This document shows positions 1-20,137 of a stretch of 21,670 bases of DNA, one piece after another. The notes under the pieces are model-generated. The model did no database searches. It had not been told where the DNA came from and saw only the letters and a program-made list of their open reading frames with translations. A program made the position numbers and the translations under genes. This DNA is from a virus: positions 1 to 21,670 of the IMG/VR virus record IMGVR_UViG_3300030117_000791. One strand, given 5' to 3'. Every line of letters begins with the position of its first letter. The stretch's first letter is position 1.

Positions 1-126
1 TGTCATCAAACTATGTAGTTTATCTTTAATTGACACACCTTCTTTTAACGTCTTGGACTTAAACTTTATCCAAAGTTTCTTGTCTACAACGAAAGAAGTT
101 TGATATCTATCTTTTGTATTTATCAT
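1..126 (-). CDS. Ribbon-helix-helix (CopG/ParD-type) DNA-binding protein, C-terminus cut by window edge
   Basis: The 42 visible residues begin MINTKDRYQTSF and have the classical ribbon-helix-helix pattern: a short beta strand (RYQTSFVV), an acidic/basic turn (DKKLW), helix 1 (IKFKSKTLKEG) and a Ser-Ile-capped helix 2 (VSIKDKLHSLM). Such proteins dimerise, insert the strand pair into the DNA major groove and usually act as repressors, often on their own promoter. The gene is open at the left edge, so total length and any C-terminal domain are unknown. A good sigma70-like promoter lies directly upstream and no Shine-Dalgarno site precedes the ATG. The predicted transcription start falls on the A of the ATG, so the mRNA may be leaderless. 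Family assignment rests on pattern only. Confidence 0.72.
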   Translation of the reverse strand, partial: MINTKDRYQTSFVVDKKLWIKFKSKTLKEGVSIKDKLHSLMT

Positions 127-1472: not shown

Positions 1473-1519
1473 AAAAAAACCAAGCGACGCCCGACATAAA
1501 ATTGTCGGACGCCATCTTG
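1473..1519 (-). terminator. Intrinsic terminator after the amidoligase gene
   Basis: On the minus strand an 11-bp stem GGCGTCCGACA / TGTCGGGCGTC (two G-T pairs, six-base loop) is extended by CAAG/CTTG across a small internal loop. It is followed at once by a G and seven T. It lies eight bases after the amidoligase stop, closing the amidotransferase/amidoligase unit. Confidence 0.85.
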
Positions 1520-1526
1520 ATTGTCT

Positions 1527-3263
1527 TTACAATGTATAACTACGTATCAACTCATAGTCTACATCTTGTTTCTGGTCGTACACTTGTTTCCAATCAACAC
1601 ATCTATCGTCGTTCACAAGTAGGAACGTATCTTTAAATATGTCTTTGTATTCAAATGTCAACGTCTCTTTGTCAAACTCTACAATGGAATCGACGCCTGA
1701 AAACACGTCGTTGTAGAATTTCGTCGCTATATGTTCTTCCATAGCATTGTGTAATTGCTCTTTCCTTTTTTGGAAGTAGCACTTTGTATCAACGTCTATG
1801 TCGAACAAGTCGTAGATATTATCTAACGACATTACAGACCTATTTGCTCTATGTCTCAAATAATTTACCATAGGTTGCAATAAGTAAGGTCTATCTTTTT
1901 TAGGCAGACCGAGATATCGTCGTAATACCTCAGACTTTTTCCTATAATCAAATACGTCAGATGAATCGCCGACGTCAGTAAATGAACTATACTGATTTGA
2001 TATCTGCGACAACTTGGTATTTATCGTTGGACTAACCCATAAAGACTTAAACATATCAGTGCTTCCAAAGCTGGAATAACTACTCATATTGTCCTTAATG
2101 TCTTCTGCTATTTGATAAGACCTGTCCACGACTTGTGTCCAGAACTTAGTCCAGTATTTGATTTTGTCTGTTTGCAAAGTACCCGAGTGATAACGTATTT
2201 CCAGACCTTGATTGGCTTGAAAATGGCTATGCCAATTCAGTCCATGATATCTTTTGTCGTTATACTTTTCGTCTGTATAACCACCATTGTCGTAGTAGAA
2301 CTCTACAAAAGAGTCTCTATCTTCAATATATTTGAAATCATTGACTGATTGTGAAACTGGTCTACCCCAACGTTGTCCACCACTACCATAGTATCTAGAC
2401 TTTGGCAACCACGTATAAATATGTGGCTCCATTAGTTTAGTAAATAGTGTTAAGACTGACGCGTGTATCCAGTCGTGGTCTTGGACGTCTATATGTAAGT
2501 GAAGTCCAGTCTTCCAGGAAGCATATGCGTTCCACTTGTTTTCCAGACGCCTACAAAAGAAGTCAGCATCGTGTAATAGTCTATCACCACGTCTTGGTCG
2601 CATAACAAGTTCACCACCATATCGGTGTCTGTCGTTTGTAACACTTCCATCGGAGACAAAATGAGACATACCCAGATTATAATAAACGTCTGTATTTTCT
2701 GTATCTCTTGTTCTTCCGAGTTCGTAGTTCAGGTCGTCTTGGACATCTTCGAAGCTCTCGTCATATCTGAAGTTAGTCTCCAGTTCTAGACCGACATACC
2801 TTTTAGACTTTATCCAACGAAAAGTGTCTTTCGTATAGAAATGTCTATCAGGGTGTACCCAGTCAGTTCTGTTTACTACATAGCTATGATTATAGACTTC
2901 CCAATCAGGTTGTCTATTGTATTCTTCTTCCTCATAGCAACTATCACAAAGATAATCGCCATACCTGTCTGACCAGCACGCGTCATCACGCCACATCTCG
3001 TAGTCGCAAGACGGACAACATATTACTGACTCGTCATAACAAGATTCGCAGAAGTAATGACCATTAAACTCAATAGCGTCTTCTTGGTGAATATTGTCTC
3101 CACACTCACAACTGAAGTAATTCTCTGCACAACTATTGCACAAAGGGTCGCCACTTGAATTGGTGTAATGATTGCCGTCTTCGACGACTTCTTCATTGCA
3201 GTCTTCACAACAAGAAGGTTCCATTTGATGTGGTTCTGTCTGATGTCTACTTTCAGGAGGCAT
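1527..3263 (-). CDS. Amidoligase (Amidoligase_2, glutamine-synthetase-like fold) with N-terminal Cys-rich zinc domain
   Basis: This 578-aa protein has two parts. Residues 1-115 hold about 16 cysteines, mostly as CxxC pairs (CCEDC, CNSC, CEC, CESC, CCPSC, CDSC), resembling tandem LIM-like or treble-clef zinc modules. From about residue 150 the COOH-NH2 ligase core is seen: GLELE (158-162), SDGS (near 204-207), GGELV (216-220), GLHLHID (253-259), RYHGLN (338-343) and LEIRYHSGTL (354-363). These match the metal, ATP and substrate motifs of the Amidoligase_2 family (PF12224), which joins amines to carboxylates using ATP. The remaining C-terminus, about 200 residues, is helical and unassigned. The ATG at 3263 has GAGG upstream and overlaps the amidotransferase stop by 11 bp, so the two are probably translated together. 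In this family a neighbouring Gln amidotransferase may supply the amine. The substrate is unknown. Confidence 0.85.
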   Translation of the reverse strand: MPPESRHQTEPHQMEPSCCEDCNEEVVEDGNHYTNSSGDPLCNSCAENYFSCECGDNIHQEDAIEFNGHYFCESCYDESVICCPSCDYEMWRDDACWSDRYGDYLCDSCYEEEEYNRQPDWEVYNHSYVVNRTDWVHPDRHFYTKDTFRWIKSKRYVGLELETNFRYDESFEDVQDDLNYELGRTRDTENTDVYYNLGMSHFVSDGSVTNDRHRYGGELVMRPRRGDRLLHDADFFCRRLENKWNAYASWKTGLHLHIDVQDHDWIHASVLTLFTKLMEPHIYTWLPKSRYYGSGGQRWGRPVSQSVNDFKYIEDRDSFVEFYYDNGGYTDEKYNDKRYHGLNWHSHFQANQGLEIRYHSGTLQTDKIKYWTKFWTQVVDRSYQIAEDIKDNMSSYSSFGSTDMFKSLWVSPTINTKLSQISNQYSSFTDVGDSSDVFDYRKKSEVLRRYLGLPKKDRPYLLQPMVNYLRHRANRSVMSLDNIYDLFDIDVDTKCYFQKRKEQLHNAMEEHIATKFYNDVFSGVDSIVEFDKETLTFEYKDIFKDTFLLVNDDRCVDWKQVYDQKQDVDYELIRSYTL

Positions 3264-4323
3264 TTTCAACCTCTACTTCTTCCCAGACACCTGTTCCATA
3301 CTTGTCTTGAAACATCTTATCCTCACTATATACTTCTTCGGTGTGAGGACAGACGTAATACCAAGTATCGTCTGACTCGTCAAAGAACCACGAATTTGGA
3401 CTAGTATTAAATATCCCTGCTAGTTCCAACGCTTCGTCGTTAAGCCATTGTTTGGACCAATCATCATTTATGTCATCATCAAATCCAAGTTCCTGTTGCG
3501 AGTTAAAGTCGCTAACTTGACTTGCACTTTTGAAATGACCCCAACCACGATTTTGCGTCGGGTATTGATTGATGTTCCATTGGTATACTCTTGACTCATA
3601 CTTGAACAATGTCTTTTCTACATTAGTTTTAATATCGTCAAACTTCGACGTATCAAAAGCATATAATGTATTTTTGTTAAGACTATAAACGTCTGCGTCT
3701 AAATTATGCATTATTAAAGCATCATTAATAAACGACGCTTCACTTGCATAGAACAACGTTTTTAGTTCAGGTATGTATGCGACGTGTAAAGGACGATTTG
3801 TCTCTCTACACAAATATAATACCATTGGGTTTTTCTTAACAAATGATAACGCAAAGTCGCTGTCAAAATCTTGGACTGCTTCTTGTATATTATCATTATC
3901 ATTAATTGACTTAAAGATAAGCTGTGAGTCTACAGGACATTGTTTGTCTAGTTTACTTTGCATTTCTTTAATATTGTAAACGCAACCATTGTGAGCTCCG
4001 ACGACATCGCCGACTCTAAATGGGTGTGCGTTCGATTTGACTATTGCTCCTTCTGTCGCAAAGCGTGTATGTCCAAGCAATATGTATGATGAGTCTAGTA
4101 ATGACTTAACTGCATCATTATATTCTTTGGAGTCTACAAACTTCTCAGACGGCAATAGTGATTTATATATTCTAGTGCTAGTTCCGACCTTAGCAATACC
4201 AGACGAGTGAGAACCACGCGACTGACTATCTATTGCTATTTCACGCAACACCTTTTTGACAACTTTATGTTGTCTCTTAGTGTACGGCGTCGGAGACTTT
4301 GCTATACCATATATACCACACAT
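3253..4323 (-). CDS. Class II glutamine amidotransferase (Ntn-hydrolase fold)
   Basis: 356 aa. It starts MCGIYG, so removal of Met exposes the catalytic Cys2 of the Ntn class II glutaminase fold. Other hallmarks follow in order: RGSHSSG (36-42, the usual RGxDSxG with His for Asp), GHTRFAT (84-90), SNAHPF (97-102), AHNGCVYN (110-117, oxyanion/glutamine pocket) and DSQ (132-134). The enzyme should hydrolyse glutamine and pass ammonia to a partner. No synthetase domain is fused, so the partner is probably the amidoligase encoded immediately downstream with an 11-bp overlap. The C-terminal 100 residues are acidic and aromatic (NSWFFDESDDTWYYV) and may be a docking region. GGAG lies eight bases before the ATG. 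Confidence 0.9.
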   Translation of the reverse strand: MCGIYGIAKSPTPYTKRQHKVVKKVLREIAIDSQSRGSHSSGIAKVGTSTRIYKSLLPSEKFVDSKEYNDAVKSLLDSSYILLGHTRFATEGAIVKSNAHPFRVGDVVGAHNGCVYNIKEMQSKLDKQCPVDSQLIFKSINDNDNIQEAVQDFDSDFALSFVKKNPMVLYLCRETNRPLHVAYIPELKTLFYASEASFINDALIMHNLDADVYSLNKNTLYAFDTSKFDDIKTNVEKTLFKYESRVYQWNINQYPTQNRGWGHFKSASQVSDFNSQQELGFDDDINDDWSKQWLNDEALELAGIFNTSPNSWFFDESDDTWYYVCPHTEEVYSEDKMFQDKYGTGVWEEVEVENAS

Positions 4324-4326
4324 AGT

Positions 4327-4467
4327 CTAATCTCCTTTGTTTATGTTTAAAATCCCTGTATCCTGTACAGGCGAAGTTTGCGACGATACATATTCGGTGC
4401 GAAAGGAATAACACCCAGACAAACCGACTATTTGTCCATACTGATTATGTCTCGTCGCTATAATCAT
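4327..4467 (-). CDS. Hidden 46-aa peptide gene coupled to the amidotransferase
   Basis: A short reading frame begins MIIATRHNQYGQIVGLSG, contains a single Cys (GCYSFRTEY) and ends LNINKGD. Its ATG overlaps the stop of the 111-aa gene as ATGA, and its last codons contain the GGAG ribosome-binding site of the amidotransferase; only three bases separate its stop from that start codon. The whole gap is thus used by one open frame, which argues for a real gene. No homologous family is recognised. It could be a small partner protein, a leader that couples translation, or a peptide substrate of the amidation system; the last is only a hypothesis. Confidence 0.6.
   Translation of the reverse strand: MIIATRHNQYGQIVGLSGCYSFRTEYVSSQTSPVQDTGILNINKGD
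4355..4371 (-). other. Small hairpin upstream of the amidotransferase start
   Basis: Perfect 6-bp inverted repeat CCTGTA / TACAGG with a five-base loop, inside the end of the 46-aa gene and about 15 bp upstream of the amidotransferase ribosome-binding site. It might tune translation of the amidotransferase, but a 6-bp stem is short and it may be chance. Confidence 0.3.
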
Positions 4468-6288: not shown

Positions 6289-6325
6289 AAAAAAAAATAC
6301 CCCAGGGTTGTTAGCCCCAGGGTAT
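6289..6325 (-). terminator. Intrinsic terminator of the small membrane-protein genes
   Basis: On the minus strand ATACCC and GGGTAT form the outer stem. After a two-base symmetric internal loop, GGGCT pairs with AACCC (one wobble) around a three-base loop. Nine T follow directly (plus 6289-6297 is all A). It lies seven bases after the stop of the 32-aa gene. Confidence 0.85.
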
Positions 6326-6331
6326 CTCTTG

Positions 6332-7313: not shown

Positions 7314-7634
7314 ATGAGCAAAAAACAACAGAAAAAAGCAATGGAATTAACTATTGGTGGTCATTTATACAAGATAGTAGAATTACCACTAAAACATGAA
7401 GATGAAAGCAAAGAATTGTATGGTAGACATATGGTAAAAGAAAATATCATACTAATTAATGAAGATATACATCAATCTAGAAAAGAAGAAACGTTAGTAC
7501 ACGAAATATTACACGCTATATTTTACAATTATGGGTTAGAACACGAAGAAAGACTTATTGATGCTATATCAAACGGATTATTTCAACTAGGAGTAGGAGA
7601 CTATCTATGGAAGACCTCAAAAAAGCAATCTTAA
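7314..7634 (+). CDS. Small HExxH zinc-metallopeptidase-like protein (106 aa)
   Basis: The HEILH motif at residues 63-67 (LVHEILHAIFYNYG), followed by the acidic helix EHEERLIDAISNGLFQL, fits the minimal zincin core of ImmA/IrrE- or SprT-like small phage peptidases: two His ligands, a catalytic Glu and a downstream acidic third ligand (one of E76, E78, E79 or D83). The N-terminal half supplies the beta strands (YKIVELPL, NIILINEDI). Substrate unknown; relatives may cleave repressors, but that is not shown here. GGGAG precedes the ATG. First gene of the rightward operon, overlapping the next gene by 28 bp. Confidence 0.75.
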   Translation: MSKKQQKKAMELTIGGHLYKIVELPLKHEDESKELYGRHMVKENIILINEDIHQSRKEETLVHEILHAIFYNYGLEHEERLIDAISNGLFQLGVGDYLWKTSKKQS

Positions 7635-7792
7635 AAGCAAAAGAACAAGGAAATGCACCATTAGTGCAAAGATTACAGCAAGAACTAGATGAACTAGAAA
7701 AGATACGTCAAAACCTTAACTGGGATAAGTTAATACGTGAATTAGAAGATGTAAAAGATGCGGAGGATTTTCCAAATGAATCAAAAAAATAG
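7607..7792 (+). CDS. Small coiled-coil protein (61 aa)
   Basis: Helical and highly charged from end to end (MEDLKKAILKAKEQGNAPLV, then QRLQQELDELEKIRQNLNW). The heptads predict a coiled coil. AGGAG lies seven bases before the ATG, supporting this start inside the end of the metallopeptidase gene. Overlaps the next gene by 17 bp. Function not recognised. Confidence 0.7.
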   Translation: MEDLKKAILKAKEQGNAPLVQRLQQELDELEKIRQNLNWDKLIRELEDVKDAEDFPNESKK

Positions 7793-8135
7793 TACAACAG
7801 AAGACGTAGTATCATATATAAAAGAAAACTACCCTTCTACAGAAAAAGAATTTCAAGCTCTTTTAAATGAAATGTACTTAACATTTTGTAAAAAACAGTT
7901 TGATTATGGTCCTGGCAATATTGCTATGGGTACCAGTTTAAAAAACGAAAAAGAAGTCAATACAGCCTTATTTGGTATCATTGTAAGGCTTAATGATAAG
8001 ATAAACAGACTAATCAACTTGTCAACCAATCACGATATGAAAGCAAAGAATGAACCAATAGACGATGCTTTTATGGATATTGCAGTATATGCAGTGATGG
8101 CAATGATAGTCAAACAAAACAAATGGGGTAAATAA
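7776..8135 (+). CDS. DUF1599/Nmad1-like all-alpha protein (119 aa)
   Basis: The pattern FCKKQFDYGPGNIAMGTSL, then GIIVRLNDKINRLINL and finally EPIDDAFMDIAVYAVMA matches the DUF1599 (Nmad1, nucleotide-modification-associated) family. The motifs are an aromatic Lys/Asp-Tyr-Gly turn, a basic Arg-Leu-x-x-Lys helix and an acidic D-x-x-x-D helix. This all-alpha family resembles MazG-type nucleotide pyrophosphatases and is found in many phages, sometimes with base-modification genes. I place the start at 7776 because GGAGG lies nine bases upstream; an ATG six codons earlier lacks a site. The stop overlaps the exonuclease start by one base. No base-modification enzyme is seen in this window. Confidence 0.65.
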   Translation: MNQKNSTTEDVVSYIKENYPSTEKEFQALLNEMYLTFCKKQFDYGPGNIAMGTSLKNEKEVNTALFGIIVRLNDKINRLINLSTNHDMKAKNEPIDDAFMDIAVYAVMAMIVKQNKWGK

Positions 8136-9116: not shown

Positions 9117-9878
9117 ATGAAAGAACGTATTGTAAAAGGTGTAACGCACTATCTTTATGAAAGCGAGTTAGAATTTAGGGAATATCATAAAAGTATTTCT
9201 TTAATTTCTAACTGGCGTCATTCAAATAAAGGTGATTGGATATTGACTGATGATGGTCAAGTATGTCAAGTGTTACACCTAGACGTTCTTAAAAAGCCTG
9301 ACAGAAAAAAAGAGACTACATTTATTAGAACTATAATTGGTTCTTTTATTTGTAGTCCTAGGGTAGTAATAAAAGGTGACATGAAAACAAACATGTACAC
9401 TTTTTCTACTGCAGGAGAATCTCCTTCTGTTAGGAAGAGAAATAGAAAACATACTACAGATAAAGAATTTTTGTTTGGAAAGTATGTTGCTAAAGGAGAT
9501 GATGTGGTTGAAGCATATATGAAAGCATTTCCTAGTAAGAATGAGAATTATGCAAAGTCACAAGCAAAGTTATTATTAAAAACCGATAGGGTAAAAAAAT
9601 TGATTAGAGAAGAAATAGACAAACACTTGAATGATGCTGAGATTACTCCTCAATATCTATTAGAAGAAATGAGAAATATCATAGATAAAGGAGGTTCTTC
9701 AGATAGAGACAAGATAACAGCTATAACAACATTAATGAAAATATCTGGAATGATGGACACAGAAAAGACTACAGAGTCTTTAACACTATTCCAAGGATTT
9801 ACACAGGAGCAACTAAATGCAATTCAAGGGTCCCAACACAAGAAATTGGCGGAAGTTAAAAAAGATAACGAAAAATAA
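9117..9878 (+). CDS. terS: Terminase small subunit-like protein with extra N-terminal domain (253 aa)
   Basis: Residues 110-215 look like a phage terminase small subunit: FLFGKYVAKGDDVVEAYMKA, then a helix-turn-helix-like region (YAKSQAKLLLKTDRVKKLI) and EITPQYLLEEMRNIIDKG before a helical oligomerisation part. Such proteins form a ring, recognise packaging DNA and regulate the large subunit. The first 100 residues (SNWRHSNKGDWILTDDGQVC) are strand-rich and not part of the usual short small subunit. Position three genes before the large terminase supports the call. The start has only a weak ribosome-binding site (AGAG at distance). Confidence 0.7.
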   Translation: MKERIVKGVTHYLYESELEFREYHKSISLISNWRHSNKGDWILTDDGQVCQVLHLDVLKKPDRKKETTFIRTIIGSFICSPRVVIKGDMKTNMYTFSTAGESPSVRKRNRKHTTDKEFLFGKYVAKGDDVVEAYMKAFPSKNENYAKSQAKLLLKTDRVKKLIREEIDKHLNDAEITPQYLLEEMRNIIDKGGSSDRDKITAITTLMKISGMMDTEKTTESLTLFQGFTQEQLNAIQGSQHKKLAEVKKDNEK

Positions 9879-10044
9879 ACGTTGTCATATCTGCTATTAT
9901 CGATTAAGTAAAACAGGAGTGTTTCTTTATAGTAAAGAAAAAAGAGATACTACTCATGTCAAATGTTTTAATTGTTTAACAGTATATAATACATCTTTTG
10001 GTATTACAGATGTAGGTATACCTAGAGAGGTAGGTCATTCATGA
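9817..10044 (+). CDS. Small zinc-finger protein (75 aa)
   Basis: Two CxxC knuckles, CHIC (near 23-26) and CFNC (near 50-53), separated by a basic stretch, form a probable zinc ribbon. The start lies within the end of the small-terminase gene but is supported by AGGAG seven bases before the ATG. The stop overlaps the cyclotransferase ATG as ATGA. The basic N-terminus (NTRNWRKLKKITKNKR) suggests nucleic-acid binding. Function unknown. Confidence 0.66.
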   Translation: MQFKGPNTRNWRKLKKITKNKRCHICYYRLSKTGVFLYSKEKRDTTHVKCFNCLTVYNTSFGITDVGIPREVGHS

Positions 10045-10448
10045 GATTAGCAGTTTATGGTACATTAAGAAGAGGATTTGAAGATACTGGCAAAGTAGAA
10101 GGCTTTAGTTTAGTATTTCCTGGGCACAAACATTTTCCAGCTCTAATAAAAAATGAAAAAGGCAAAGGTGCAGTCGTAGAAGTTGTTGATGTAACAGACG
10201 AAGAGCTTAATATGTATGATATGTATGAATCTACAAAAGATGGTTTATATATCAGAACAACAGCAAATGTTCTTCTTGATGAGACAAAAGAAAAAGAAAA
10301 ATGTTGGATATATGTAGCTGGACCTTTATTATGGCAAAGTTCTAATATGTTTACAGAAGTACCTGATGGTGACTGGCTTTCACCTAAAACAATGGTTATG
10401 ATGGATAGAGTTCATGAAAAAGAATACGAAGAAGCCAGAAAATTTTAA
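10041..10448 (+). CDS. Gamma-glutamylcyclotransferase-like (GGCT/AIG2 family) protein
   Basis: 135 aa, the usual size of the family. The signature YGTLRRG (residues 6-12) forms the glutamyl-binding loop. DEELNMYDMYES (53-64) with Glu63 fits the conserved 'D..E' region, followed by YIRT at 70-73. Members turn gamma-glutamyl-amines or peptides into 5-oxoproline plus the free amine, either in glutathione turnover or to release gamma-glutamyl protecting or cross-link groups. Catalytic identity is inferred. It sits just upstream of the large terminase gene, about 5.7 kb from the amidotransferase/amidoligase pair with which this family may cooperate. Overlaps the terminase start by 35 bp. Confidence 0.83.
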   Translation: MRLAVYGTLRRGFEDTGKVEGFSLVFPGHKHFPALIKNEKGKGAVVEVVDVTDEELNMYDMYESTKDGLYIRTTANVLLDETKEKEKCWIYVAGPLLWQSSNMFTEVPDGDWLSPKTMVMMDRVHEKEYEEARKF

Positions 10449-12000
10449 TATCATACCACCCGACTTATCTCAAAAAGAAAAAGCATTGGAGTTGGCAAGA
10501 AAGGATATTGTGACTTTTGGTCAAATGTTTCTACCAGAAGATTTTATGAAGTCAACTCCTGCTCCTTATCAGTATGAGCTAAGTGAAATACTTTTAGGAA
10601 AAGATAAGCGAGTTTGTATTATATTACCTAGAGGTCACGCTAAATCAACATTAGCTAAAACAGCTTTATTACATCAACTGTATTTTGCTCCACCAGAAAA
10701 AAAACAATTTATTGCTTGGGTATCAGAAGAGCAATCTCAGGCTATTGACCATATTAAATATATACAAAATCATATAGATATTAATCCTGCATTACAATAT
10801 TACTTTGGAGATTTAAAAGGAAGTAAGTGGACAGAGAAAGAATTTACAACTGCTAGAGGAGATAGAATTATTGCAAAAGGTACATCTCAAAGATTGCGTG
10901 GTCGTTCTCAATTAGGATTAAGATATACTAATATTATACTTGATGACTTTGAATCAGAATTAAATACTAAAACACCAGAAAGAAGAAGAGAGATTAAAGA
11001 ATGGGTAATGTCAACGGTAGAACCCGCTTTGGAAAACTCCAAAGAAAACGAAGGGTCAATATGGCTTATTGGTACAATAGTCCATTACGATTCATTCCTG
11101 CAAGGAGTATACGATGGATATCTTCAGGCGAAAAAAGAAGATAGAAAGTCTGCTTGGAATGTACTATATAAAAAGGCTATAGTAGATGATGTGCCTCTAT
11201 GGCCTAGCTATTTCACAAAAGAAAAGCTTATGGATATTAAAAGAAGGTTTACAGAAATGGGACTAGTCCATAAGTTTGCCCAAGAGTATCTAAATGAGGC
11301 AAGAGATTTAGAAAGTGCTAAGTTTCATATAGATAGACTTAATTACTACAGAGGAAATCTTGTAGAGAGAAATGGTTTTAACTATATGATGGTAGATGAA
11401 TCTGCTATACCTGTAAATGTATATATAGGAGTTGACTTGGCTTACGAAGCAAATGCAAGAAGCGACTACCAGGTAATTATGGTTATTGCTATTGATAGCG
11501 ATAGAAATGTATATATCGTTGATTACTACAGAGAACATTCTCCATTATATGATATGCCTAAGACTATTGTTGATATGGCAAAAAAGTACCACCCTGTTAG
11601 AAGAGTTAATGTTGAAAAGGTTGGTGCTCAAGGATTAGTAAAAGATTATGTAAATCAACTTGTTGGTAAAGATAGAAAATTAGCACCAGGTTTATCACAA
11701 GGAGTTAGACCTCCATCTGGTATCAAAAAAGAAGATAGGTTAGAAGCATTGCTTTGTCCTATTGTTAATCGAAGAAAGATGTTTATCAAGAAAGAACACG
11801 CAAATCTAGTAGATGAAATGTTTGAGTTTCCAAAAGGTAGAAACGATGACCTTCTTGACGGACTTTGGTATGCTGTCACTACAGCAAAACCTCCCAAAAG
11901 TTCTGCAATCGACGCAGATAAACTAGAAGACAAAATAAGTAAAATAGAAGAAAGTAGAGCAAAAAAAGTCATAAACTGGGTTACTGGTCAAAAAATATAA
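10414..12000 (+). CDS. terL: Terminase large subunit (ATPase and nuclease)
   Basis: 528 aa. The ATPase carries a degenerate Walker A, PRGHAKST (72-79), with Lys77, and a Walker B, IILDDFE (174-180), with the catalytic acidic pair. The C-terminal RNase H-like nuclease shows GVDLAY (339-344, Asp341), VEKVGAQG (400-407, Glu401) and the acidic NDDLLDGL (477-484). This is the motor that pumps DNA into the prohead and cuts the concatemer. The start overlaps the cyclotransferase gene by 35 bp and has only a weak ribosome-binding site. Terminase_6-type families are the nearest match by pattern. Confidence 0.95.
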   Translation: MKKNTKKPENFNIIPPDLSQKEKALELARKDIVTFGQMFLPEDFMKSTPAPYQYELSEILLGKDKRVCIILPRGHAKSTLAKTALLHQLYFAPPEKKQFIAWVSEEQSQAIDHIKYIQNHIDINPALQYYFGDLKGSKWTEKEFTTARGDRIIAKGTSQRLRGRSQLGLRYTNIILDDFESELNTKTPERRREIKEWVMSTVEPALENSKENEGSIWLIGTIVHYDSFLQGVYDGYLQAKKEDRKSAWNVLYKKAIVDDVPLWPSYFTKEKLMDIKRRFTEMGLVHKFAQEYLNEARDLESAKFHIDRLNYYRGNLVERNGFNYMMVDESAIPVNVYIGVDLAYEANARSDYQVIMVIAIDSDRNVYIVDYYREHSPLYDMPKTIVDMAKKYHPVRRVNVEKVGAQGLVKDYVNQLVGKDRKLAPGLSQGVRPPSGIKKEDRLEALLCPIVNRRKMFIKKEHANLVDEMFEFPKGRNDDLLDGLWYAVTTAKPPKSSAIDADKLEDKISKIEESRAKKVINWVTGQKI

Positions 12001-18243: not shown

Positions 18244-19859
18244 TGGCTGATTTTAAAACAAGAATAGATGATTTAACAGGCTTTGCAAGTACTGATGACA
18301 CAGCGTTAAATGACTGGTTGTCAGCTGGTGCTCGTTCTGTAATGAATGTACTTCCTCTAAATAAGCTAGAGAGAGTAGCAAGTAATGAAAACTTTACAAA
18401 CAATATAGATGTAGAGGGAAAAAAGATTTTAGCGGTTGTTAGAAAAGATAACAATCACGCAAGTAAGATTTATACACCATGTAGAAAATTACCACCTTCA
18501 ATGATGGGTAGAGTAAACGATACAAGCTATATGGAAGCTGCGTCAGAAAGTGACCCAGCATATATTATACAAAACGATGTTTTGAATACATATCCAGGTA
18601 GCAATGCAAGCAATGATAGTAGGGTTGTATTTGTAAACTCTTCAATAACTGTAGCACATGGAGATAGTGCAATAGCAAACTTTCCTGACGAAGCAGAAGA
18701 AGCAGTAGTTTTATACGGAGCAAGAAATGCATTAGAAAGATTAATGAATGGATTACAATCTAATGATTTAATAGACCACGCTTCAACAGGTGCATTAGCA
18801 CTTATGAATGCAGAGATTGATGATGTGGTTCATGATTCAAATGGTTCTTTAGCAAAAGCAAAAGCACAAATAGATAATTTTGTTACATCTATAGGAGATA
18901 TAGACGATACTACAGAATTGTTTGATAACACAAATAAGAGGTTTACAGTAGTAAGAGATGCTTTAGTAAAAGCACAAGATATTATAGATAATGATGGTTT
19001 TGGTAGCGGTTTAGATGTAACAGATTTTGTTGGAGATGTAGATACAGCTTTAGGTAAAATAGATGCACATTTAACTGACGAAGAAGCTATATTAACTAAT
19101 GACCCAACTTCTGGAGATATTTCTACAGCATTAGGAGCAATTAAAACAGCTGTAGACCAAGCAGCAACAGCAGCAGGAAAATTTACTTCAGCTGATGAGT
19201 CTGTTTTTGGAGATGAAGATACATTTTTAACTAGCAACTCTCAATTAACAAGAGTAAAAGATGCTCTAGATAAAGCACAAGAAACTATTACTGGAGACCA
19301 ACCATCTTCCAGCTTGGATGCAAGAGGTGCTCAAGCAGATGAAGATGTAGAACTAGTAAGCTCTGCTTTAAACATAGCTCAAACAGAAATATCAAGAGCT
19401 CAAACTCACTTATCAGAATGGGCTAGTATTGGAGATATGAGAGTAAAAGAAGTTCAGGTAGCACTTAATGAGGCAGATGGTTATGCAAAAGAAGTACAAG
19501 CTAGACTTGGATATGCAGCAGCTTACATAGCTGCAGCAAATGCTAGAACACAAGAAGGTTCTTCAAGAATATCTCAAGCTAGCCTAGGTGTGTCAGTAGC
19601 ACAACAAGAATTACAAAGAGCAAATGTAGCTATAGCAGAAATAAACTCTTTAATGGCTTCATATTCTTTAGAACTTCAAAGTGTTGCTCCTTATATGAGT
19701 GAAGTATCAGGAAAGTTGTCAGCAGCAGCTCAGTATGGTCAAGAGTTTCAAGCTAGACTTACTAGAGACCAGGCTAAATATCAGTGGTATACTCAACAGT
19801 ATGCTCAGGTAGATGCTAGATATAAAGAACAAATACAAACTCTTCAAGGAGCATTATAA
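18243..19859 (+). CDS. Large coiled-coil structural protein (538 aa), connector/neck-like
   Basis: The first 170 residues (TRIDDLTGFASTDDTALNDW, then SAGARSVMNVLP) look like a compact connector-type domain as seen in marine phage virion genes. From 175 to the end the protein is almost all helix with a regular Ala/Glu/Ser heptad, including LNIAQTEISRAQTHLSEWAS, YAAAYIAAANARTQEGSSRI and VAQQELQRANVAIAEINSLM. This implies a long trimeric or dimeric coiled coil, such as a neck whisker or fibre. The name is inferred from position between head and tail genes and from composition. Confidence 0.72.
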   Translation: MADFKTRIDDLTGFASTDDTALNDWLSAGARSVMNVLPLNKLERVASNENFTNNIDVEGKKILAVVRKDNNHASKIYTPCRKLPPSMMGRVNDTSYMEAASESDPAYIIQNDVLNTYPGSNASNDSRVVFVNSSITVAHGDSAIANFPDEAEEAVVLYGARNALERLMNGLQSNDLIDHASTGALALMNAEIDDVVHDSNGSLAKAKAQIDNFVTSIGDIDDTTELFDNTNKRFTVVRDALVKAQDIIDNDGFGSGLDVTDFVGDVDTALGKIDAHLTDEEAILTNDPTSGDISTALGAIKTAVDQAATAAGKFTSADESVFGDEDTFLTSNSQLTRVKDALDKAQETITGDQPSSSLDARGAQADEDVELVSSALNIAQTEISRAQTHLSEWASIGDMRVKEVQVALNEADGYAKEVQARLGYAAAYIAAANARTQEGSSRISQASLGVSVAQQELQRANVAIAEINSLMASYSLELQSVAPYMSEVSGKLSAAAQYGQEFQARLTRDQAKYQWYTQQYAQVDARYKEQIQTLQGAL

Positions 19860-20137
19860 TGGCTGATTATAAAAACACGCAATGGACAGAAGAAAGTATT
19901 GCACCAAGCACTACTTGGACAGAAGAAAATTTACAGGCATCAACAACCTGGACAGAGCAAGGTATATCTCCAAGCACTACTTGGACTGAAGAAAGTTTAC
20001 AAGCAGCAACTACTTGGACAGAACAAAATATAGCTCCAACTACAGGCTGGAAAGAGGTTATAGAAGAGTATGACAACTGGGAAGATGCAATTAATTTTTG
20101 GAATTTAGCTAATTTTAATTGGGAGGAAATAGGATAA
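19859..20137 (+). CDS. Trp-Thr-Glu repeat protein (92 aa)
   Basis: Five 11-residue repeats begin at residue 7 and a degenerate sixth follows (units TQWTEESIAPS, TTWTEENLQAS, TTWTEQGISPS, TTWTEESLQAA, TTWTEQNIAPT, then TGWKEV). Trp occurs at 9, 20, 31, 42, 53 and 64. Odd units carry I-[AS]-P, even units L-Q-A, giving a 22-residue super-repeat that probably forms a short beta solenoid or fibre. The tail is acidic and Trp-rich (YDNWEDAINFWNLANFNWEE). Chain member with TAATG at both ends; perhaps a small tail appendage. No family recognised. Confidence 0.75.
   Translation: MADYKNTQWTEESIAPSTTWTEENLQASTTWTEQGISPSTTWTEESLQAATTWTEQNIAPTTGWKEVIEEYDNWEDAINFWNLANFNWEEIG
19877..20074 (+). repeat. 33-bp tandem repeats (six units, last degenerate) coding the WTE repeat
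   Basis: 33-bp units such as ACTACTTGGACAGAA recur from 19877 with about 70-90% identity; units 1, 3, 5 and 2, 4 are closest to each other, as in the protein. The last is degenerate. Confidence 0.7.

Follow-up and report, generated by a model that had tools for sequence, protein, structure and literature searches.

Gene content of the locus

The sequence analysed here (the window) is an IMG/VR virus record of 21,670 bases that belongs to an uncultured phage family. Two overlapping genes on the minus strand encode a class II glutamine amidotransferase (GATase) and a ligase of the Amidoligase_2 family, and the gene of a gamma-glutamyl cyclotransferase (GGCT) is localized in the other arm, on the plus strand (Table 1). 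An initial annotation, made from the sequence alone, had recognized the GATase and the ligase by their motifs and had described the third protein as GGCT/AIG2-like; the Pfam profiles recover all three. The dN/dS values of the three genes in close relatives are comprised between about 0.04 and 0.28, which indicates purifying selection on the three reading frames and rules out chance open reading frames.

Table 1. Coordinates of the features of the pair, of the GGCT and of the terminase in the window
Feature	Position	Strand	Remarks
Terminator-like hairpin	1485..1514	-	12 pairs, T-rich tail; just 3' of the ligase; consensus match only
Amidoligase_2 ligase	1527..3263	-	578 aa from ATG; PF12224 E=5.6e-16
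Ligase catalytic core, residues 156-379	2133..2804	-	Pfam span; invariant columns, 20 relatives
Three predicted Cys4 zinc-finger-like units	2937..3212	-	C21/24..44/47; C54/56..74/77; C85/88..108/111
Class II (Ntn) GATase	3253..4323	-	356 aa; PF13522 E=1.3e-13; phrog_4736 E=1.2e-39
AAGGAGA, probable ribosome-binding site of the GATase	4331..4337	-	Read from the sequence
GGACT/AIG2-type GGCT	10041..10448	+	135 aa; PF06094 E=2e-15
Terminase large subunit (TerL)	10414..12000	+	phrog_38 E=1.3e-77; start overlapped by the GGCT gene

Direct tblastn searches of 50,697 phage records with the ligase, the GGCT and the portal protein gave zero matches, so that an isolate relative of this phage was not found; its TerL displays at best about 25% identity. 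The anti-phage defence models of PADLOC matched neither the GATase, the ligase nor the GGCT. Elsewhere in the window, a strong terminator-like hairpin of 16 pairs (6292-6330) is located between the two arms, a small M78/IrrE-like metallopeptidase with the motif HExxH (7314-7634) is also conserved in the sister clade, and a protein of the plus-strand arm (7758-8135) matches DUF1599, 'nucleotide modification associated domain 1', barely above the Pfam cut-off. A small protein composed of repeated (S/A)TTWTE(Q/E) units (19859-20137) has a diverged counterpart in the relative G005.

Amidoligase_2 ligase

The ligase obtains 59.6 bits with PF12224 (curated cut-off 22), and this profile was above its cut-off in 28/28 records searched. 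The frame (1527-3269) is counted from its first start codon, the TTG at 3269, and the near-invariance of M3 among 20 relatives indicates that the ATG at 3263 is probably the true start. As read from the sequence, the start of the ligase and the stop of the GATase share 11 nt, ATGCCTCCTGA. The core contains the sequences GLELE (160-164), GLHLHID (255-261) and LEIRYHSGTL (356-365), whose motifs ExE (162/164), HxHxD (257/259/261) and ExRYHxGT (357-364) are invariant or nearly so in the 20 ligases. A profile of this core matches the amidoligases of isolate phages (E=5.5e-6), and the C-terminus of the ligase is variable.

The N-terminus (about residues 20-111), which the initial annotation did not mention, is rich in cysteines: 10 of the 12 Cys of the three zinc-finger-like units are invariant in 20 relatives and the remaining two are near-invariant. 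A ligase bearing three such Cys4 units, for which zinc binding is predicted, is newly described here.

The structural model of the ligase has a mean pLDDT of 79, part of it being of low confidence. In the PDB, Foldseek retrieved as best match the glutamine synthetase 8oon (6.4e-4), followed by YbdK 1tt4 (8.9e-4), with further matches to YbdK 1r8g, Dop and the gamma-glutamylmethylamide synthetase GmaS. The TM-scores of the full-length model are modest (0.2-0.4), since the alignment is confined to the ligase core. This model thus predicts a glutamine-synthetase-like fold, at E-values of about 1e-3. Among viral fold predictions, the top matches were amidoligases, one of them labelled 'LIM domain containing protein'.

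Class II glutamine amidotransferase

The GATase is composed of a glutaminase domain (about residues 2-245), a variable linker and a small C-terminal module (289-345). Class II enzymes are characterized by an N-terminal Cys, an Arg, the Asn-Gly of the oxyanion hole and a Gln-binding Asp. The corresponding residues C2, R87, N112, G113 and D132, found in or near the motifs C2, G84-HTRFAT and A110-HNG, are invariant in 22 GATase sequences. The model of the protein matches the glutaminases of PurF, GFAT and GlmS and also asparagine synthetase, with E-values down to 5e-13, and assigns to it a predicted Ntn glutaminase fold. Compared with the NCBIfam equivalogs of full-length GlmS, PurF and AsnB, the protein missed the cut-offs widely, and no Pfam synthase domain was matched in its C-terminal 110 residues.

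GGCT and the terminase operon

The score of the GGCT with PF06094 is 57.8 bits (cut-off 22.8). The motif YGTLR and the residue E63 are invariant in 17/17 relatives. In an alignment with human GGACT, whose family has an established activity on gamma-glutamyl amines, the counterpart of E63 is E82. The GGCT gene adjoins that of TerL in all 78 family loci where this could be tested and in the five sister-clade records checked. By its position, the GGCT belongs to the terminase/packaging operon and lies outside the operon of the pair. Between TerS and the GGCT lies a gene that overlaps both (9817-10044); its product, conserved in the family, is of 75 aa, contains two CxxC pairs and has no Pfam match.

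Linkage and co-evolution in the phage family

The scans of IMG/VR yielded 54 GATase loci, 103 stretches with a ligase (80 kept) and 179 stretches encoding a relative of the GGCT (80 kept). Wherever a GGCT locus extends as far as the pair (28/28), it contains both the GATase and the ligase. We also searched 50 divergent records over their whole length: the ligase is present in 46, and 44 of these 46 encode a GATase, the exceptions being G049 and G010, whose ligase is located at the edge of its contig. The two genes overlap in nearly all relatives of the clade, mostly by 8-17 nt, and the pair is retained while the small genes that flank it turn over. A gene for a substrate peptide adjoining the pair was sought in the window's clade, and the flanking small genes are not conserved. 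Structure prediction and co-occurrence of the genes had been named as checks by the initial annotation. Both came out in favour of the pair: the models keep the ligase and glutaminase folds with invariant catalytic residues, and the two genes are adjacent in essentially every relative.

In 31 contigs with all four genes, the protein distances of the ligase and the GATase are correlated with r=0.91, and still with r=0.82 when TerL is removed. In the same set, the partial correlation of the GGCT with the ligase is 0.17-0.25 (0.25 given TerL), and the partial r of the GGCT with TerL is 0.60 after removing the GATase; physical linkage could produce this last pattern, so that the distances neither disprove nor support a shared pathway. 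The close co-evolution of the ligase and the GATase is most simply read as that of a single, putative glutamine-dependent amidation unit.

The sister clade has a different organization, newly described here, in which two ligases flank a single GATase (ligase, GATase, a gene of 97-99 aa, second ligase), as expected if the GATase serves ligases. In several of its upstream ligases, the first 160 residues contain no CxxC pair, and the zinc units are thus dispensable for some ligases. The conserved 97-99 aa gene (L124:7698-7991, with counterparts in L126, L128, L130, L131, L132, L135, L137, L138 and L139) gave no credible family, the only Pfam match being a weak one (E=0.0097), below the cut-off, and no homologue was found in the window's clade.

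More distant phages have the order ligase-then-GATase. In distant phages carrying the pair, the GGCT was detected neither by the family's own model nor by Pfam, four of them (G042, G044, G048 and G050) having the pair without a detectable GGCT. An ATP-grasp ligase and a COOH-NH2 ligase (gamma-glutamyl amidoligase) were each found in 0/25 records, against 3/3 positive isolate controls; these absence counts are strong only in aggregate, as no record is known to be complete and several are of 40-72 kb. The absence of the other cassette ligases from the 25 records implies that the ligase and the GATase must suffice.

Some contigs stand apart from this picture. Six distant phage contigs (L056-L061) encode a MCGIYGI-type GATase of 395-463 aa, the family model detects no ligase in them, and they were treated as a separate matter. 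In L022 (10610-12350), the ligase is split into two overlapping frames, probably by a sequencing error or as a pseudogene. Finally, a scan of the genome collection recovered a single distant amidoligase, encoded by an Elusimicrobia MAG, and gave no clue to the host.

Proposed function of the pair

We consider it slightly better than an even bet that the ligase and the GATase form one cytoplasmic glutamine-dependent enzyme system which amidates a target, the GGCT acting later with packaging. The GATase would free its N-terminal Cys, hydrolyse glutamine and hand the ammonia to the glutamine-synthetase-like ligase, which would use ATP to activate a carboxylate and then form an amide, or join another amine. 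The N-terminal Cys4 units may dock the ligase on a macromolecule, either a protein of the host or a cell-wall precursor that bears a peptide, and together with the variable C-terminus would select the target. The pair probably acts early in infection, altering the host for the benefit of the phage. Early expression is suggested by its location close to the beginning of the minus-strand arm, where replication genes are also found (a DnaB-like helicase and a PD-(D/E)XK nuclease in the same arm of the relative G005). The GGCT would act later, with packaging, on small gamma-glutamyl compounds. Against a single unit, the GATase could cleave gamma-glutamyl amides or work alone; against docking, the Cys units could serve to bind nucleic acid or have a structural role only.

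The initial annotation had proposed a route that builds and reverses an amide or gamma-glutamyl link. Its building half is supported by the folds, the invariant residues and the adjacency of the pair. The reversal by the GGCT finds no support within the phage family: this gene lies in the terminase operon, its divergence tracks that of TerL more than that of the ligase, and distant phages keep the pair without a detectable GGCT. The same evidence, that is the adjacency or overlap with TerL in every locus examined, the partial correlations and the four records with the pair alone, gives about an even chance that the GGCT is unrelated to the pair and constitutes an independent accessory of the packaging operon. 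Against this independence, physical linkage alone could yield the correlations, all three genes occur together in every family locus that spans them, and the GGCT lies within the amidoligase cluster of the isolates Bjorn (gp22-gp26) and Vibrio 1.293.O. Its location inside the cluster of these two phages and of PSA-HP1 (PMC5498523) is what speaks for a possible reversal by the GGCT.

As for the target, a candidate is the cell wall. In PSA-HP1 and related podoviruses, seven genes make up a 'peptidoglycan modification cassette', with a GATase, a GGCT, an enzyme of the ATP-grasp type and two amidoligases; its hypothesised role is superinfection exclusion (PMC5498523). As was suggested for the cassettes of RIO-1/PSA-HP1 and of phiEco32 (in the latter case by Iyer et al. 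2009, as cited in PMC10580990), the pair would amidate or link peptidoglycan stem-peptide precursors in the cytoplasm to modify the wall and exclude superinfecting phages, and the GGCT would trim gamma-glutamyl products. This is possible, if clearly less probable than the general scheme above. The three enzyme types of the window are the same as in the PSA-HP1-type cassette and in UFV-P2 (PMC3890496), MurT/GatD of Staphylococcus aureus pairs an amidating ligase with a glutaminase and acts on peptidoglycan (PMC3267633), and in evolved Pseudomonas phages missense changes arose in an amidoligase gene as well as in a GATase-type gene (PMC11450229). However, the ATP-grasp and COOH-NH2 ligases of the cassette are missing here, zinc-finger-like units would be unexpected on an enzyme of UDP-muropeptides, and in the literature found the peptidoglycan target of such cassettes is a hypothesis only (PMC5498523, PMC10580990). 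That literature also reports no enzymatic test of phage amidoligases.

Small-molecule or amine metabolism appears a rather unlikely role: the ligase would synthesize the gamma-glutamyl derivative of an amine or of an amino acid, from which the GATase would take ammonia or an amine, and the GGCT would convert the gamma-glutamyl compound to 5-oxoproline. The matches of the ligase model to YbdK (glutamate-cysteine ligase-like) and to gamma-glutamylmethylamide synthetase point in this direction, as does the chemistry of the GGCT, suited to gamma-glutamyl amines and consistent with the E63/E82 match; but the GGCT is in a separate operon and is missing from distant pair-bearing phages, and a large, variable ligase with Cys units would exceed the needs of a small-molecule enzyme. 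Comparably doubtful is a stand-alone pair acting with glutamine on a specific host protein, picked by the LIM-like Cys units, whose side-chain carboxylates would be amidated or conjugated to an amine. If true, such amidation of host proteins would be a new kind of viral post-translational modification, unlike the ADP-ribosylation or acetylation carried out by phages. DNA base hypermodification, in which the pair would put an amino group or an amino acid on a modified base, is highly improbable. The DUF1599 protein mentioned above would agree with it, but among the 58 proteins of a 51.8 kb relative a Pfam search detected neither a thymidylate synthase-like enzyme nor a hydroxymethylase nor a nucleotide kinase, and this explanation was rejected on the absence of these nucleotide enzymes.

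Phage amidoligases have been annotated for more than ten years, and the known cassettes comprise at least five genes, which makes their chemistry hard to untangle. As the family described here retains one ligase and one glutaminase, a two-protein reconstitution could reveal the function of the module; the large size of this uncultured family, judged from the 179 stretches encoding a GGCT relative, suggests that the module may be common.

Comparison with known systems

MurT and GatD resemble the pair by their working mode, in which two genes encode a glutaminase and a ligase that amidates with glutamine. They belong to the Mur-ligases (MurT) and to the class I amidotransferases (GatD), and neither of these families matches the proteins of the window.

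The predicted folds nearest to the complete ligase model are those of amidoligases of uncultured Caudovirales phages (BFVD A0A6J7X2B6 and A0A6J7X5D3), which bear the annotation 'LIM domain containing protein' or 'Amidoligase enzyme' and are 14-17% identical to the ligase when the folds are aligned. Ligases of this Cys-rich architecture are thus probably already present in databases.

Pseudomonas phage Bjorn encodes the same enzyme types on a single strand (gp22-gp26), in a row composed of an amidoligase, a GATase, a small gene, a protein that weakly matches ATP-grasp enzymes (gp25) and a GGCT. It differs from the window by an amidoligase without CxxC units, by a ligase that precedes the GATase and by the ATP-grasp-like gp25. 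In Vibrio phage 1.293.O, the GGCT gene overlaps that of the GATase.

The nearest systems are the cassettes of the RIO-1-like, LUZ24-like and Zobellviridae podoviruses (PSA-HP1, RIO-1, PA11, tf, UFV-P2 and phiEco32), which combine, as here, an Amidoligase_2 protein and a class II GATase, often have a GGACT-type GGCT and are located near replication genes. OM43 phages likewise have an amidoligase plus a GATase (PMC10580990). The general idea has prior art in Iyer et al. 2009, as reported by papers that cite it, and in the work of Hardies et al. 2013 cited by PMC5498523, and in view of this podovirus literature the idea of the initial annotation re-derives published predictions. The GATase of the window is about 31% identical to the PA11-type GATase, and the window family has an amidoligase and a GATase close together, as in such cassettes. 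The differences are that this family has a single ligase, bearing three Cys4 units, that its GATase and ligase genes overlap directly and that its GGCT lies outside the cassette, in the terminase operon of the other arm. What is new here is a reduced version of the known phage cassette, without the ATP-grasp or COOH-NH2 ligases: the putative glutamine-dependent amidoligase pair is a slimmed form of a gene set that earlier work had predicted in other phages.
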